Shown: positions 40,754 through 47,612 of the stretch, one piece after another | Position numbering within the stretch: the stretch's first letter is position 1 | Layout of the letters: each line of letters starts with the position of its first letter | Position numbers and translations under genes: made by a program | Assembly (NCBI RefSeq): GCF_003402975.1 | Contig: NZ_QURB01000001.1 | Span: 372,001 to 436,000 of the forward strand | From: Brumimicrobium aurantiacum | GTDB taxonomy: Bacteria; Bacteroidota; Bacteroidia; Flavobacteriales_D; Crocinitomicaceae | DNA length: 64,000 bases | Direction: 5' to 3' | The notes under the pieces: generated by a model | Told to the model about the DNA's origin: nothing | Databases searched by the model: none | Seen by the model: the letters and a program-made list of their open reading frames with translations, nothing else

Positions 40754-42556
40754 ATGAAAAAGATTTACGTAATGGCAGCTTTTTTAGGAGCATCTTCATT
40801 TGCTTTTAATCAAGTTGTACAGGAAGCGCCTTCTCACTTTACCAAAAGTACTAAGAAAGCAATTTCTAATAATAATGGTGTAACTAAAGCTCCAGGTGTA
40901 AGTTTATGGTCAGACGACTTTTCTGATGAAACTACATGGACAATTGGTAACTCTGGTCAACAAGGTACATTTGACATTGGTGTTGAGGCTGACCTTCCAA
41001 ACCCAAACTACTATTCAGTAATTACTTCTCCAACTGCAACAAATGGTTTTGCATTTTTCGAAGGAGTTCAGTTCTTGTTAGCAGGTTCTGTTGATGTACA
41101 AAATTCATGGGTTGAGTCTAACACAAGTGTTGACTGTTCAGCTCATTCACAAATTACAGTTAACTTTCACCAAGAATACCGTGCATTTAACGATGATGTA
41201 ACATACGTTGAAATCAGTTTAGATGGTGGTTTAACTTGGGAACAAACAGTTGATGTTAACGCAGGAATCGTAGTAAATACATATGCTACTGAAACTGAAA
41301 AATTCGTTAACTTTAACGTAAACAACTCTTCAGATGTAAGAGTAAGATTTAGATGGGAGAACACAAGTACTGACAACCAATATGGTTCAGGTTACGCTTG
41401 GATGGTTGATGATGTACAAATCTCAAGTTTAGCTGATCACGATATCGCTACGAGTGGTCTTAACTATGGTACTGCTGGATTATTTTACACTCAAATCCCA
41501 GTTACTCAAATTGCACCAATCGGATCTGCAGTAGTATTGAACAACCAAGGTTCGTCTGATCAAACTAACGTTGTTTTAAACGCAGAGGAGGTTATTGCTG
41601 GTAACTATTCTTCAACTTCTACACCAGTAGCTATCGTTGCAGGTGGTGATGATTCAGTTGCGGTAAATTCAGACTTTACTCCATCAGGAGCTGGAAACTA
41701 CCAAATTGATTACTCAATTACTTATGACAACACAGATGATGTACCTTCTAACAACATGTTAGAATCTTACACTTTCACAGTTGGGACTAACATCTATGCT
41801 AGAGATACTTCAACTCAAGCTGAAATGGGAACAGTTTACGGTCGTATGACAGGATCTAATGCAACTCCATCTCCAAGAGAATTACAACCAGGTACTTTGT
41901 ATGACATCTATACAGACCAATCATTAACAGGAATTGACTTCCAATTTGGTGATGTTATTTCTGAAGGTTCAGAAGTTTATGGTGAGATTTTTGACTCAAA
42001 CTTAGACCCAATTGCTAATGGTGAGACAATGCCATATACAGTTGTTTCTGGTGATGAAGGAACATACCACACATTAGTATTTGACACTCCAGTTGATTTA
42101 GTAGCTGGTGAGACTTACTTAGTTTCGGTTAAATGTTTTGATACTGACTTCTCAGTAGCTACTGCTGGAGCTAGTGCTGCACAAACTTCATTTGTTTATT
42201 ACCCAGATGAAACTACTTGGTACTATACTTTATCTACTCCAGTTATCCGTATGAACTTTGATCCAACATTGAATGTAGAGAACAATGAGTTATCTAACTT
42301 AAATGTAACTCAAAACTTCCCTAACCCATTCTCAACTGAGACTACAGTTCAGTTCAACTTGAAAGAAGCAGCTGATGTTTCTTACTCAGTAGTTGACATG
42401 ACTGGTAAAGTTATGTTGAATGTAAACGAAGGAAACACAATTGCTGGTGATCACCAAATCACTATCGATGGTTCTTCTTTCGCTAACGGAGTTTATTACT
42501 TAAACATTACAGCTGGTGAATCAAACGTTACACGTAAAATGATCGTGAACAAATAA
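40754..42556 (+). CDS. Secreted protein with type IX sorting domain
   Basis: 600 residues. Signal peptide MKKIYVMAAFLGASSFAF; then a jelly-roll-like region 'SLWSDDFSDETTWTIGNSGQ' with an 'EISLDGGLTWEQTVDVNAG' segment typical of secreted Bacteroidota proteins, Ig-like beta domains, and the C-terminal T9SS sorting domain ('NFPNPFSTETTVQFNL' to 'TRKMIVNK'). No catalytic motif is seen, so it may be an adhesin or surface protein. Codon use is biased compared with its neighbours, a sign of high expression. It has its own promoter and terminator and is followed by three small-RNA-like repeats. Confidence 0.85.
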   Translation: MKKIYVMAAFLGASSFAFNQVVQEAPSHFTKSTKKAISNNNGVTKAPGVSLWSDDFSDETTWTIGNSGQQGTFDIGVEADLPNPNYYSVITSPTATNGFAFFEGVQFLLAGSVDVQNSWVESNTSVDCSAHSQITVNFHQEYRAFNDDVTYVEISLDGGLTWEQTVDVNAGIVVNTYATETEKFVNFNVNNSSDVRVRFRWENTSTDNQYGSGYAWMVDDVQISSLADHDIATSGLNYGTAGLFYTQIPVTQIAPIGSAVVLNNQGSSDQTNVVLNAEEVIAGNYSSTSTPVAIVAGGDDSVAVNSDFTPSGAGNYQIDYSITYDNTDDVPSNNMLESYTFTVGTNIYARDTSTQAEMGTVYGRMTGSNATPSPRELQPGTLYDIYTDQSLTGIDFQFGDVISEGSEVYGEIFDSNLDPIANGETMPYTVVSGDEGTYHTLVFDTPVDLVAGETYLVSVKCFDTDFSVATAGASAAQTSFVYYPDETTWYYTLSTPVIRMNFDPTLNVENNELSNLNVTQNFPNPFSTETTVQFNLKEAADVSYSVVDMTGKVMLNVNEGNTIAGDHQITIDGSSFANGVYYLNITAGESNVTRKMIVNK

Positions 42557-42579
42557 TCATCATCTGAAAAGATATAAGA

Positions 42580-42608
42580 AGAGGAGCTTTAATAGCTCCT
42601 CTTTTTTT
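42580..42608 (+). terminator. Rho-independent terminator of the T9SS protein gene
   Basis: GAGGAGCT / AGCTCCTC stem with a short loop and TTTTTTT tail, 25 bases after the stop. Confidence 0.85.
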
Positions 42609-42737
42609 ATGCCTAATATTTCCATTTACCTACATTCAAAAACAACTTAATCATAATAAAAGTAAATTCAATAAACAGAATATACAATTCAAATTATATA
42701 CGAAATTGGAGCAATAGAAAAACGTATCTTTACACCA

Positions 42738-42835
42738 TAAGATACAAACATGTCTAAGGCATGTAAAATTGTACAGTTTTCATAAGTAGTAGTGTTTAAC
42801 AAGAGAGGAAGCAATTGCTTCCTCTCTTGTTTATT
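42738..42835 (+). ncRNA. Tandem small-RNA-like unit 1
   Basis: Contains the core TTTCATAAGTAGTAGTGT (42778-42795) followed three bases later by a perfect 15-bp stem (AACAAGAGAGGAAGC 42798-42812; complement 42817-42831) with AATT loop and a T-rich end. A likely promoter lies upstream: TTG at 42706-42708 and TATCTTTA at 42725-42732. Strand + is inferred from the order core-hairpin-T-rich tail. The body between promoter and core differs from units 2 and 3. I know no named RNA with this core; comparison with Rfam is needed. Confidence 0.55.
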
Positions 42836-42942
42836 TAATGATATTAAATTTCATTAAACATTCAAATAAAAAAGCAATTACGAGTCTAAATAAGATCAAA
42901 AAGAGATAAAAATTCTTTAACATATATTTTATATATGAGTAC

Positions 42943-43037
42943 AACAAATGATTTAAATCAGTGTTATTACAATGTTAGGTTTCATAAGTAGTAGTGTAAA
43001 CAGGAGAGAAGGCGCCCGCTTTCTCTCCTGTTGTTTT
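42943..43037 (+). ncRNA. Tandem small-RNA-like unit 2
   Basis: The same core TTTCATAAGTAGTAGTGT at 42980-42997, preceded by GTTAGG and followed by a stem (AACAGGAGAGAA / TTCTCTCCTGTT around GGCGCCCGCT) and TTTTTT. Upstream, TTCTTTAACAT (42913-42923) and TATATAT (42930-42936) sit at the same distances as in unit 3 (67 bases from first element to core), which marks a shared promoter. The estimated RNA is about 95 nt. Stem bases differ between units while pairing is kept. Confidence 0.6.
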
Positions 43038-43121
43038 TTACAATAAATATGAATAAATGATTGTCTAAAATATAATGCTTAAAAAAAACATTTCTTTAAC
43101 ATTTATTTTACATATCAACAC

Positions 43122-43216
43122 AACAAAAGAAAAAATCAGAGGTTTATATAGTGTTAGGTTTCATAAGTAGTAGTGTTATACAAGAGAGAAAGCGCCCGCT
43201 TTCTCTCTTGTTGTTT
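43122..43216 (+). ncRNA. Tandem small-RNA-like unit 3
   Basis: Core at 43159-43176, again preceded by GTTAGG; stem ACAAGAGAGAAAGCG / complement at 43197-43211. Upstream TTCTTTAACAT (43092-43102) and TACATAT (43109-43115) repeat the unit 2 spacing exactly. It ends a few bases before the stop of the convergent small membrane protein gene. Confidence 0.6.
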
Positions 43217-43223
43217 ATAGAAA

Positions 43224-43565
43224 TTAATTATTATTAATTTTGTTTGGAATAATCAACCATACCCCAATTACAACTACTCCAGTTAACAATAAGTAGCTAC
43301 TACCCTCAATTGCTAAACGGTTCAAAGAAACCCCATAAATAATTAGAGTTATACTTAACAACAACATAACGCCTGATAAATTGATTGATTTGTTCTTCAT
43401 CATACTTGAAAAAAGAAGAATGACTCCTGCACTCCCAAAAACAATAGAAAAGTATGGTAAAAAATCAATAATTGTAGAACCTTCAAATCCAAGTGCATTA
43501 AATATAGTAGGTAATAACATTGATATCAAAGCTATTACAAAAGAATATGTCGCCCATTTTGTCAT
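43224..43565 (-). CDS. Small integral membrane protein of unknown function
   Basis: 113 residues with four hydrophobic helices (about 6-24, 32-51, 60-77, 88-104) and short basic links such as 'MKNKSINL'. No signal peptide, no recognisable domain. Single gene, convergent with the small-RNA units and divergent from the SAM-riboswitch-controlled metH genes. Confidence 0.6.
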   Translation of the reverse strand: MTKWATYSFVIALISMLLPTIFNALGFEGSTIIDFLPYFSIVFGSAGVILLFSSMMKNKSINLSGVMLLLSITLIIYGVSLNRLAIEGSSYLLLTGVVVIGVWLIIPNKINNN

Positions 43566-43660: not shown

Positions 43661-43687
43661 AGAAGTTCTTTAAAAGAATAAAATAAT

Positions 43688-43802
43688 ACTTATAAAGAAA
43701 GGTGGAGGGACAGGCCCTAAGAAACCTTGGCAACCTTTTAAACTTTTAATTTCGGTGCCAAATCCTTTTTCAATTTCGATTAAGATTTGAAAATAGATAA
43801 GT
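43688..43802 (+). ncRNA. SAM riboswitch (S-box type) upstream of metH
   Basis: The conserved SAM-I core is present: AGGTGGAGGGACAGGCCCTA, then GAAACC, TTGGCAACC, and further down GGTGCCAAATCC. P1 is formed by ACTTAT (43688-43693) with ATAAGT (43797-43802). It controls the two methionine synthase genes, fitting the end product. No clear terminator stem follows, so control may act on translation or by an arrangement I cannot see. Confidence 0.9.
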
Positions 43803-43890
43803 TGAACTAAAGTGACTACGGCTTTTTCTTCCTTTTTCTTTTATTAAAAATATTATTTTTAATTACGGTATAGCAATTACCGATTATAAA

Positions 43891-44904
43891 ATGACTATGA
43901 CTAAAAGAAACATACGCGACATAATAAAAGAGAAAACCTTAGTACTAGACGGTGCTATGGGTACAATGATTCAACAATATGATTTAGAGGAAAGTGATTT
44001 TCGTAGAAACTGGTTTGAAGATGCCAAAAAACCATTGAAAGGAAATAATGATTTACTTTCACTAACTAGACCAGAAATCATCAAGGAGATTCATGCAAGC
44101 TATTTTGAAGCAGGAGCAGATATTTGTGAAACGAACACATTCTCTGGAACAACAATTGCCCAAGCAGACTACGATTTAGAAGAAGCCGTTTACGATATTA
44201 ATTTTCATTCGGCTAAATTGGCAAAAGAAGTTGCTGATGAATTCACACAAAAAGAACCTAATAAACCTCGCTATGTTGCAGGTGCAATTGGGCCAACAAA
44301 CCGAACTTGTTCTATTTCTCCAGATGTAAACAACCCCGCTTTTCGAGCAATCACATTTGATGAACTCGTAGAAGCATATAGTTTACAAGTTAAAGCACTT
44401 ATTGAAGGAGGTGTTGATATATTATTAGTAGAAACTATATTTGACACTTTAAATGCAAAAGCTGCTTTATATGCCATTGATGTTATTCAAGAAGAATTAA
44501 ACACAGATTTACCTATAATGGTTTCTGGTACAATCACAGATGCATCAGGTAGAACATTAACAGGACAAACCACTGAAGCATTTCTTATTTCTATATCACA
44601 TTTACCCGTTTTAAGTGTTGGGTTAAATTGTGCTCTAGGAGCAAGAGAATTAAGACAATATTTGAAAATAATGGATGAAAAAGCGCCATTTTATGTTTCT
44701 GCACATCCAAATGCCGGTTTACCTAACGAATTTGGTGAGTATGATGAAACTCCTGAAATTATGGGAGAACAAATCGAAGAGTTCTTGAAAGAAGGATTGG
44801 TTAATATCATCGGAGGATGCTGTGGAACCACTCCTGAGCACATTAAAGTAATTGCTGATCTAGCAGAAAAACATAAGGTTAGAAAACTAAATCAAAGCAT
44901 CTAA
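43891..44904 (+). CDS. metH: Methionine synthase, homocysteine-binding module (split MetH)
   Basis: 337 residues forming the homocysteine S-methyltransferase TIM barrel: '[20 protein letters not shown]' at the N-terminus and the zinc ligands Cys in '[10 protein letters not shown]' and the Cys pair in '[12 protein letters not shown]'. The other modules are in the next gene, 23 bases downstream. Splitting MetH into two genes is the usual state in Flavobacteriia, so this is not a frameshift. Expression is governed by the SAM riboswitch at 43688. Confidence 0.93.
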
Positions 44905-44927: not shown

Positions 44928-47612
44928 ATGAACAATAATAATATTCCACCCTTACAGCTTTCCGGACTTGAACCTTTAATTGTTAGCACTGAATCCAATT
45001 TTATTAACGTTGGTGAACGTACAAATGTTACGGGATCTAAAAAGTTTTTACGCTTGATCAAAGAAGAAAAATTTGAAGAAGCCTTGGAGGTTGCTTTAGA
45101 ACAAGTTCAAGGTGGAGCACAAATCATTGATGTGAACATGGATGAAGGAATGATCGATGGTAAAGAAGCCATGATTAACTTTCTTAATTTAATAGCATCA
45201 GAACCAGATATTGCACGTGTACCAATTATGGTAGATTCTTCAAAATGGGAAATTATCGAAGCAGGATTAAAATGCGTTCAAGGGAAAGGAGTTGTAAATT
45301 CAATCTCGCTGAAAGACGGTGAAGAATTATTTATCGAACGTGCTAAAATTGTAAGAAGATTAGGAGCTGCTGTAATCGTGATGGCTTTCGACGAAGATGG
45401 ACAAGCAGACAATTACGAGAGAAGAATTGAAATTTGTAAAAGGTCTTATAATATATTAGTTGATAAAGTAAATTTCCCTCCTCAAGATATCATTTTCGAC
45501 CCTAATATTTTTCCTGTTGCAACAGGAATGGAAGAACACCGAAACAATGCCTTAGATTTCTTTAACGCCACCGAATGGATTCGTAAAAATTTACCAGGAG
45601 CTAGTGTTTCGGGAGGAGTTTCTAATGTCTCATTTTCTTTCAGAGGGAACAATGCTGTTCGTGAAGCAATGCATTCTGCCTTTCTGTATCACGCTATACA
45701 ACGAGGTATGAACATGGGAATCGTTAATCCTTCCCTTCTCGGTGTTTATGATGACATTGACAAAGAGTTACTTGAAAAAGTGGAAGATGTTCTTTTAAAC
45801 AGAAGAGCTGATGCAACAGAACGTTTACTCGATTTTGCTGAAAACTTCGTAGGTGAAAAGAAGTTGAAAGTCGTTGATTTATCGTGGAGAGAACAACCAG
45901 TAAATGCAAGACTTTCGCACGCTTTAGTAAAAGGAATAACAGAATATATCATTGAAGACACCGAAGAATGTCGTCAAAATTTCAAACGACCAATTGAAGT
46001 CATTGAAGGTCCATTAATGGATGGAATGAATATCGTAGGAGATCTTTTTGGAAGTGGGAAAATGTTTTTACCTCAAGTAGTAAAATCTGCAAGAGTTATG
46101 AAAAAAGCTGTTGCCTACCTACTACCGTTTATTGAAGAAGACAAACAAGAAGGAGATAAACCAAATGGAAGAATTGTAATGGCAACCGTAAAAGGTGATG
46201 TACATGACATTGGAAAAAATATTGTAGGCGTTGTTTTGGGCTGCAACAACTACGATGTCATTGATCTTGGAGTTATGGTACCAGCAGAAAAAATCATCCA
46301 AACCGCAATTGATGAAAAAGCTGACGCCATCGGACTCAGTGGACTAATTACACCTTCATTAGATGAAATGGTAACAGTAGCCAAAGAAATGGAACGAGCA
46401 GATATTGACATTCCACTTTTAATTGGAGGAGCCACAACTTCTCGTGTACATACTGCCGTAAAAATTGAACAATTTTATACGAAAAATCAAACTGTGCATA
46501 TTTTAGATGCCTCAAGATCAGTTACCGCTGTTGAAAGCTTACTTGGAAATAAACGCGACATTTTTGTATCCAACATTAAAGAGGAATACAAGAAATTAAG
46601 AGAACATCATCAAAATAAAAGTGCAAAAAAGGTCTATTTACCATTAGTCGAAGCAAGAAAAAACAAATTCCCAATTGAATGGAAGCAAGAAGATATTCAA
46701 ACTCCAAACAAATTAGGCGTTCAGCATTTTGAAGATTATAGCTTAGAAGAAATAAGTAAATACATTGATTGGACCCCTTTCTTCCAAGCATGGGAACTAG
46801 CCGGAAGATTTCCGAAAATTCTAGAAGACGAAGTTGTTGGTGAATCAGCAACGAAACTATATAAAGAAGCTCAGGAATTATTACGAAAAATCATTGATGA
46901 AAAATGGTTAACAGCCAAAGGAGTTTATGGTTTATTTCCTGCTAATTCAATCAACGATGATGACATTGAAATCTACACAGACGAATCGAGAACAGAAGTA
47001 TTGTATGTTCAACGTTCTATAAGATCCCAACTGAAAAAATCTAAAAAAGCGCACAACATTGCCTTAGCAGACTTTATCGCACCAAAAGAAAGTGGCATCA
47101 AAGATTATATTGGAGGATTTGTAGTAACATCAGGAATAGGAATAGATGAACACATCAAACGATTTAAAGACGATCACGACGATTACAATGCAATCATGAT
47201 TCAAGCATTAGCCGATAGATTAGCAGAGGCCTTTGCAGAATTACTACACGCCAAAGTTCGAAAAGAATTTTGGGGCTATTCCCCAGAAGAAGAATTCGAC
47301 AACGAAGACCTGATCAAAGAAAAATACAAAGGAATTCGTCCAGCTCCTGGTTATCCCGCTTGTCCAGATCACACAGAAAAACCAGGACTTTTTGAAATAC
47401 TAGACGCCACAAAACATACCACAGTTAAACTGACAGAACATATGGCAATGTACCCAACAGCAGCAGTTGCCGGTTGGTATTTTGGACATCCAGAAGCAAA
47501 ATATTTTGGAGTCGGAAAAATTGCCAAGGACCAAGTAGAAAGTTTAGCAGAACGCAAAGGAAAAAGATTTGAAGAAATGGAAAGATGGCTGAGTTCTAAC
47601 TTAGGGTACTAA
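44928..47612 (+). CDS. metH: Methionine synthase, folate-, cobalamin- and activation modules (split MetH)
   Basis: 894 residues. Order of modules: pterin-binding domain ('[16 protein letters not shown]' near 23-38), cobalamin cap and Rossmann domain with the axial His in '[17 protein letters not shown]' (near 425), and the C-terminal SAM-dependent reactivation domain ('[14 protein letters not shown]' near 812). With the upstream module it forms the complete vitamin-B12-dependent methionine synthase, moving methyl groups from methyltetrahydrofolate to homocysteine. A cobalamin supply is implied. Confidence 0.95.

Follow-up and report, generated by a model that had tools for sequence, protein, structure and literature searches.

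Sibling small RNAs with a candidate decoy RNA in the Crocinitomicaceae, predicted from a tandem cluster in Brumimicrobium aurantiacum

Between the genes for a secreted protein and a small hydrophobic protein, the Brumimicrobium aurantiacum genome carries three tandem copies of a short core, each followed by a hairpin. What would such units produce, and on what would the product act? An earlier note on the window (i.e., the whole 64-kb stretch of DNA analyzed here) had read them as sibling small RNAs (sRNAs). We consider it probable that the three units are trans-acting seed sRNAs, siblings within a family outside Rfam, and that a complementary RNA is their decoy or antisense partner. The family, its stem, its core, its promoter motifs, and the complementary unit are all present in the genome sequences.

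Three core-hairpin units in the window

The exact 18-nt core TTTCATAAGTAGTAGTG starts at 42778, 42980, and 43159, as first claimed, and the 667 bases given for the gap between the flanking open reading frames (42556 to 43224) were found as well. With up to three mismatches allowed, the core matched three times in 64 kb against 0.14 matches expected, a number reached in none of 100 shuffles. Each copy, written TTTCATAAGTAGTAGTG(T), is followed after 1 to 3 bases by a hairpin of 14 to 15 bp and then by a T-rich tract, and coordinates and predicted folds agree with the earlier note that the stems vary in sequence yet pair in all three units. Units 2 and 3 have in common GTTAGG directly 5' of the core, the loop CGCCCG, and the upstream box TTCTTTAACAT, which stands at 42913 and 43092, each 67 bases 5' of its own core, as had been described; unit 1 has neither GTTAGG nor this loop. 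The family model scored unit 1 at 51.7 bits, unit 2 at 69.8 bits, and unit 3 at 69.3 bits (Table 1).

Each unit would give a short transcript in which a single-stranded 5' region, GUUAGG-UUUCAUAAGUAGUAGUG, is followed by an intrinsic terminator hairpin. Because the likely start lies about 6 bases 5' of the core, the predicted length for units 2 and 3 is ~64 nt instead of the ~95 nt proposed earlier, and the unit 1 transcript may reach 100 nt. Elsewhere, the genome (3.42 Mb, 22 contigs) holds a fourth core copy (C1:719160), a model match that would be a fifth but is weak (C12:372005, E = 6.8e-4), and a near-match (C12:356169) that is the complement of the core within another short unit.

Table 1. 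Features of the tandem cluster and its neighbors (window positions)
Feature	Position	Strand	Remarks
Upstream neighbor, secreted protein that has a sorting tail for type IX secretion	40754..42556	+	Por_Secre_tail, 6.1e-13
Unit 1 -7-like box TATCTTTA	42725..42732	+	putative start, TSS ~42738; weak, predicted; consensus TAnnTTTG as in the available text of PMC9723704
Unit 1 RNA, predicted	42735..42836	+	~100 nt if begun at TATCTTTA; core 42778-42795
Unit 1 terminator stem	42798-42812/42817-42831	+	loop AATT instead of GCCC
Unit 2 upstream box TTCTTTAACAT	42913..42923	+	67 before core
Unit 2 ECF-like promoter, putative	42942..42966	+	CAAC-N16-TGTTA; 7 bases from it to GTTAGG
Unit 2 RNA, predicted	42974..43037	+	~64 nt; GTTAGG, core 42980-42997
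Unit 2 terminator stem	42999-43013/43018-43032	+	loop GCCC
Unit 3 upstream box TTCTTTAACAT	43092..43102	+	
Unit 3 ECF-like element, weaker	43122..43146	+	AAC-N16-GGTTTA; predicted, poor match
Unit 3 RNA, predicted	43153..43217	+	~65 nt; GTTAGG, core 43159-43176
Unit 3 terminator stem	43180-43193/43198-43211	+	loop GCCC
Downstream neighbor, 113-aa hydrophobic protein	43224..43565	-	no Pfam family

Genomic neighbors

Similar secreted proteins precede the tandem cluster on the same strand at loci L001, L007, L011, L012, L014, and others (a neighbor cluster of 33 members). Neighbor clusters were formed by single linkage, and the placements rest on up to 14 listed members per cluster (14 of the 33 here). 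The protein of a downstream-neighbor cluster of 31 members looks, by its sequence, like LepA, and the upstream neighbor on the opposite strand in a Fluviicola-rich cluster of 10 members looks like MetF. The placements of the sRNA copies do not point to a single common function.

Among the Brumimicrobium loci listed, the cluster lies behind a secreted-protein gene on the same strand, as it would if the units were mere repeated terminators or processing sites without independent transcription. However, the secreted-protein gene already has its own terminator-like hairpin (~42579-42603), other copies are located elsewhere (e.g., C1:719160), and the promoter motifs and the conserved core would be left unexplained, which makes this reading barely plausible to us.

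Farther along the window, a SAM riboswitch (43687-43803, 80.7 bits) stands 5' of a homocysteine methyltransferase gene (43891-44904), after which comes a second long open reading frame (44928-47612). The sRNA clusters of B. oceani (L141) and B. glaciale (L127) likewise have a SAM riboswitch within a few kilobases.

A predicted sRNA family of the Crocinitomicaceae

The covariance model search that the earlier note had suggested recovered the predicted RNA across the Crocinitomicaceae and gave only weak matches elsewhere in the class. Model R1 (E ≤ 0.001) found the RNA in 99 of 150 Crocinitomicaceae genomes, representing 16 of 24 genera, and in 74 of the 114 genomes of good quality. All 10 Brumimicrobium genomes had 3 to 7 matches each, as expected of paralogous short RNAs with one conserved 5' part. 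When R1 was run on 295 genomes of the class, seven matched (three Crocinitomicaceae and four others, the latter weakly); model R3, run on 395 class genomes at E ≤ 0.02, matched 6 Crocinitomicaceae and 34 others, 40 in all, with a best value of 3e-5 among the others. Since matches in the class outside the Crocinitomicaceae were few or weak, we would count the family, at the sensitivity used, as a Crocinitomicaceae RNA with possible distant kin.

Several of the 25 outside-family loci listed were rejected, as they look like terminators beside a start codon, read backwards. Three loci in other families of the class (L371 and L378, from one genus, and L377) may be distant kin; they share UAG/UUAGG repeats, and in them TTAGTTAGG or GTAGTAGTAG precedes a hairpin with the loop GCCC. 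A first pattern search (125 of 150 genomes, up to two mismatches) was discarded as evidence because the reversed control pattern often matched too. A link to phages was also dropped; no viral contig had the core and hairpin pattern, and one had a bare core without a hairpin (L035).

The searches agree with the suspicion that this RNA had not been described. In an Rfam scan of the window and 17 relative loci, the SAM riboswitch alone reached its gathering score, and no Rfam family did so on the units or on their relatives at those loci. Among open PMC papers, we found no description of this RNA and no paper with both "Crocinitomicaceae" and "small RNA."

The 3' hairpin is kept through compensatory change in both of our alignments. 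In the alignment of 27 copies, the 14-pair stem has 99.2% standard pairs, 12 of the 14 pairs change on both sides, and the covariation score is 0.93 (0.40 shuffled); in the alignment of 54 copies, which covers more genera, 98.9% of pairs are standard, 11 of 12 pairs change on both sides, and the score is 0.80 (0.35 shuffled). The 27-copy alignment leaves out L006 (another hairpin), L005, L030, L032, and L035 (no hairpin), and the near-copies L009, L019, and L020, and the larger one comprises 54 of 60 distinct copies from a set that required the loop pattern. Both alignments were gathered with the core as bait, and the invariance of the core within them is therefore partly by construction. Among 20 mostly low-scoring copies from the model's match list, 15 have the exact 16-mer TTTCATAAGTAGTAGT, and the remaining five (L347, L348, L351, L356, and L358) depart from it by an inserted or deleted stretch or at one to a few bases. 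Predicted folds leave the core mostly unpaired (mean, 0.80; 54 members). The loop (C/T)GC(C/T)NG is present in 26 of the 27 rows of the smaller alignment, whose rows were not chosen by loop, and in just a few of the 20 low-scoring copies.

There are two sequence types, GTTAGG-core-GTGTT or similar in Brumimicrobium, Lishizhenia, and near genera and GTTAGT-core-(AGT)n-TTAGG(TTAGG)n in Fluviicola and others. Fluviicola-type copies (L063, L080, L083, L085, L113, L142, and L151) differ in how many AGT and TTAGG units follow the core, as slippage would produce, and yet at least one TTAGG is kept. In the inner tandem units of L011, L012, L014, and L039, AGTAGTAG is repeated just 5' of GTTAGG, as a doubled partial core. 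The core-plus-loop pattern is also matched by MAGs titled Chryseobacterium gleum (L086, L132, and L135) and by CP034120.1 (L140), titled Glaciecola amylolytica, whose match and neighbors shared with Fluviicola loci suggest that the organism name is wrong.

The UAG-rich single-stranded part (GUUAGG, AAGUAGUAGU, UUUAGG) might serve instead to bind an RRM protein, with the number of sister RNAs setting its free level, in the manner of the protein-titrating RNA CsrB. The keeping of UAG/UUAGG units while their number varies would suit protein binding, RRM_1 proteins occur in 39 of 50 Crocinitomicaceae genomes (that of B. aurantiacum included) and in 31 of the 32 sRNA-bearing genomes among these 50, and the RRM protein RbpB binds FopS RNAs in Bacteroides according to the available text of PMC11697453. 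However, a single clade of the RpoN tree holds nearly all genomes that lack RRM proteins, and the match between sRNA and RRM protein thus amounts to about one event and is no independent evidence; the co-occurrence counts (31 both, 1 sRNA only, 8 RRM only, and 10 neither in 50 genomes) were set aside on this ground. Moreover, 8 of the 18 sRNA-lacking genomes still have an RRM protein, and titration leaves unexplained both the strict order of the 16-base core and the separate complementary RNA described below. We regard titration as unlikely.

Predicted promoters of the sRNA copies

Motif distances place the start site at or just 5' of GTTAGG. Motifs were counted on 78 distinct upstream stretches, the same set in which they had first been spotted by eye and which includes the chance matches L124 and L149. 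A sigma-54 -24/-12 motif stands at start-site distance in family upstreams; TGGYAY-N5-TTK was found in 27 of 78 (mean of 0.2 and maximum of 2 in 100 shuffles), and it was not seen 5' of the three units in the window. Of 60 Crocinitomicaceae genomes, 58 encode the sigma-54 DNA-binding domain. TAnnTTTG occurs in 19 of 78 upstreams (8.1 shuffled), seven times exactly at -18, and the ECF-like AAC-N15..17-YGTT occurs in 16 (5.2 shuffled), seven of them at a fixed -37. In the window, unit 2 has an ECF-like element, unit 3 a weaker one, and unit 1 merely TATCTTTA further upstream. Boxes like TTTAACAT were found in 24 of 78 upstreams (1.5 shuffled), and the -67 boxes of the window thus recur in relatives; the earlier note had taken them for a repeated promoter, but they are probably an accessory element and not the core promoter.

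These upstream motifs are similar to promoters of three classes that were mapped in Flavobacterium psychrophilum, given in the available text of PMC9723704 as a primary class with TAnnTTTG, a sigma-54 class with -24/-12 elements, and an ECF class that has a CGT box, the last of which is linked there to type IX secretion genes. The copies carry differing types of promoter motif, sigma-54 among them. The earlier reading as sibling sRNAs is supported by these motifs, far above shuffles as they are, and by the tandem and dispersed copies in 16 of 24 genera with their covarying hairpin and kept 5' core.

A palindrome, TACCATGGTA or TACCTAGGTA, lies ~45 to 50 bases 5' of the predicted start at L004, L008, L010, L015, and L134; it stands upstream of the single copy in Brumimicrobium and is a possible regulator site.

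A predicted complementary RNA

New to this analysis is a second predicted RNA that matches the shared core in reverse, and the two could bind and silence each other. In this short unit, the core's complement, CACTACTACT-R-ATG, stands behind an ECF-type promoter and is followed by a terminator of its own. The copy on contig C12 reads CACTACTACTAATGAAA and then a terminator-like hairpin, with the reverse complement of the core inside. In total, the unit is present at 14 loci in 13 genomes of three genera (10 Brumimicrobium genomes, G036 with two copies, G012, and G032). A sequence-only model made from seven aligned sequences recovered the unit at 13 loci of 12 genomes (E ≤ 1e-9), its seven training rows included, and the locus in G086 was added by pattern search. 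A partial match in G002 (5.7e-6) was left out of the count, and weak matches in 80 of 150 genomes (E ≤ 0.05) were taken as noise or reversed sRNA copies. In the five genomes examined first, the unit runs convergently toward a methyltransferase gene and divergently from uspA, and coordinates give the same divergent arrangement with the uspA orthologue in all 10 Brumimicrobium genomes.

The sequence CA(C/T)T(A/G/T)CTACT(A/G)ATG stays in loci several of which have diverged in terminators and flanks, and 5 of the 14 keep the AAA that follows ATG. Across species, all 14 loci (13 genomes) retain complementarity to the sRNA seed, with one base, position 11 of the site (A or G), always mismatched to the sRNA. 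At the pairing positions of the 14-base site there are seven substituted cells (three C-to-T, three A-to-G, and one A-to-T), of which six keep a G-U pair. Predicted duplexes with the four sRNA copies of the B. aurantiacum genome have energies of -23.2 to -28.7 kcal/mol, compared with means of -10.0 to -10.9 kcal/mol for shuffles and -21.8 for the lowest of 500 shuffles, and predicted folds leave the site only about half unpaired (0.42 to 0.72). Reading frames from the ATG vary in length and sequence between loci, and hence the unit looks non-coding.

Alternatively, a regulator could bind the core as a DNA operator just 3' of the start sites, and the transcripts would then be functionless. The core does keep a constant position relative to the predicted start sites, on their 3' side, and the complementary copy would be nearly the same site in the opposite orientation. 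Against this, a covarying terminator stem follows the core, the promoters before the core differ in type, and G-U pairs are kept at six of seven changes while the central base is always mismatched. An operator is, in our judgment, very unlikely.

A search of Fluviicola-type genera gave no complementary RNA, which therefore cannot be a general partner of the family. In the RpoN tree, the genera that have it (g1, g12, and g16) fall in one supported clade together with g3, in which it was not found, and the sRNAs of g1, g12, and g16 end in GTG, matched by the leading CAC of the complementary RNA. The promoter form of the complementary unit, GCAACC-N15/16-CGTYTW, also precedes secreted proteins and an ECF sigma gene in Brumimicrobium (Sigma70_r2; seven orthologues among 30 loci read), with an overall count not above that of the reversed control (41 versus 44). 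At L315 to L344, this form looks like an ECF promoter class of Brumimicrobium.

Proposed targets and mechanism

The 5' region would act as a seed that pairs with RNAs holding a ACUACUACUUAUG-like sequence and, where this lies around AUG, covers translation starts. Start-codon targets are plausible because UUAUGAAA, often seen at start codons, lies within the complement of the core. Target prediction with the core, suggested earlier, did not show them: over 668 start regions (a quarter of the genome) and with 60 shuffled seeds, there was no general excess at -12 kcal/mol (14 versus 15.3), and only a slight excess appeared in the far tail (4 versus 1.4 at -15 kcal/mol, reached by 3 of 60 shuffled seeds, and 3 versus 0.7 at -16 kcal/mol, reached by 1 of 60). 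Neither the words preceding ATG (965 genes) nor a wobble pattern in 10 genomes (80 versus 66 for the reversed control, with 40 sRNA copies set aside) gave a clear excess. Single genes with ACTACTTATG-like starts, often encoding secreted proteins, are leads only, as they come from pattern-selected searches. The start of uspA (ATTATTACTTATGAG in the B. aurantiacum genome) pairs well with the seed but was rejected as a target, the pairing being poorly kept in orthologues. Given that the target tests gave no clear excess, the complementary RNA is the best-supported partner.

Transcription, pairing in the cell, the direction of control, and mRNA targets are proposed here on the basis of sequence. 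Different sigma factors would switch on different copies, so that several signals may feed one seed. The complementary RNA, made from its ECF-type promoter in Brumimicrobium and two related genera, would probably act as a decoy or antisense partner of the whole set. We favor a decoy over the converse, in which the sRNAs would silence the complementary RNA, because one RNA faces 3 to 7 sisters and sits behind an ECF-type promoter. As a more tentative possibility, the parts may form a conserved two-RNA switch of the Bacteroidota, in which several sigma factors feed the sibling sRNAs and a single dedicated RNA, made from an ECF-type promoter, imitates a start-codon target by its CACUACUACU-R-AUG while keeping a central mismatch, such that envelope or type IX secretion signaling would release all targets at once.

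Comparison with known systems

The Qrr sRNAs of Vibrio, which are Hfq-dependent and act in quorum sensing, are also siblings with sigma-54 promoters; they are longer, whereas here sigma-54 motifs precede some copies only. Among enterobacterial sRNA sponges and decoys, the chbBC spacer is an RNA complementary to the seed of ChiX. The predicted partner described here instead stands alone, has an ECF-type promoter and a terminator of its own, and would face the entire set of siblings. To our knowledge, few sRNA circuits of Bacteroides are understood.

As far as the available text of PMC11697453 goes, Bacteroides has no homologues of the classical RNA chaperones, and the FopS family of Bacteroides thetaiotaomicron has 14 members with a canonical sigma promoter, is conserved within the Bacteroidaceae, and has targets that were shown; FopS RNAs bind and block start-codon regions and are bound by an RRM protein. 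The RNAs predicted here are like FopS and GibS in being paralogous, multicopy RNAs (~65 to 70 nt) with a conserved 5' seed from the same phylum, and the order of single-stranded 5' core and then terminator resembles FopS, a likeness by description and not by sequence (PMC11697453, available text). They differ from FopS, as described there, in their 3 to 7 copies per Brumimicrobium genome, their mixed promoter types, and their occurrence in the Crocinitomicaceae.

A 16-base core in 16 genera with varied sigma factors and a cognate complementary RNA would make a ready test of RNA control without Hfq-type tools, and the family may connect sigma-54 and an ECF factor with type IX secretion. The Rfp RNAs of F. 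psychrophilum are a further likeness by description, as conserved sRNAs of the Flavobacteriia, and the available text of PMC9723704 lists Rfp36 and Rfp11 under sigma-54 and ECF-type promoters. In that text, Rfp18 pairs via its third stem-loop and hence has at least three, in contrast to the single hairpin and single-stranded 5' core here. Set beside these systems, and as far as our searches reach, the units would appear to represent an undescribed family of sibling sRNAs with a cognate decoy.
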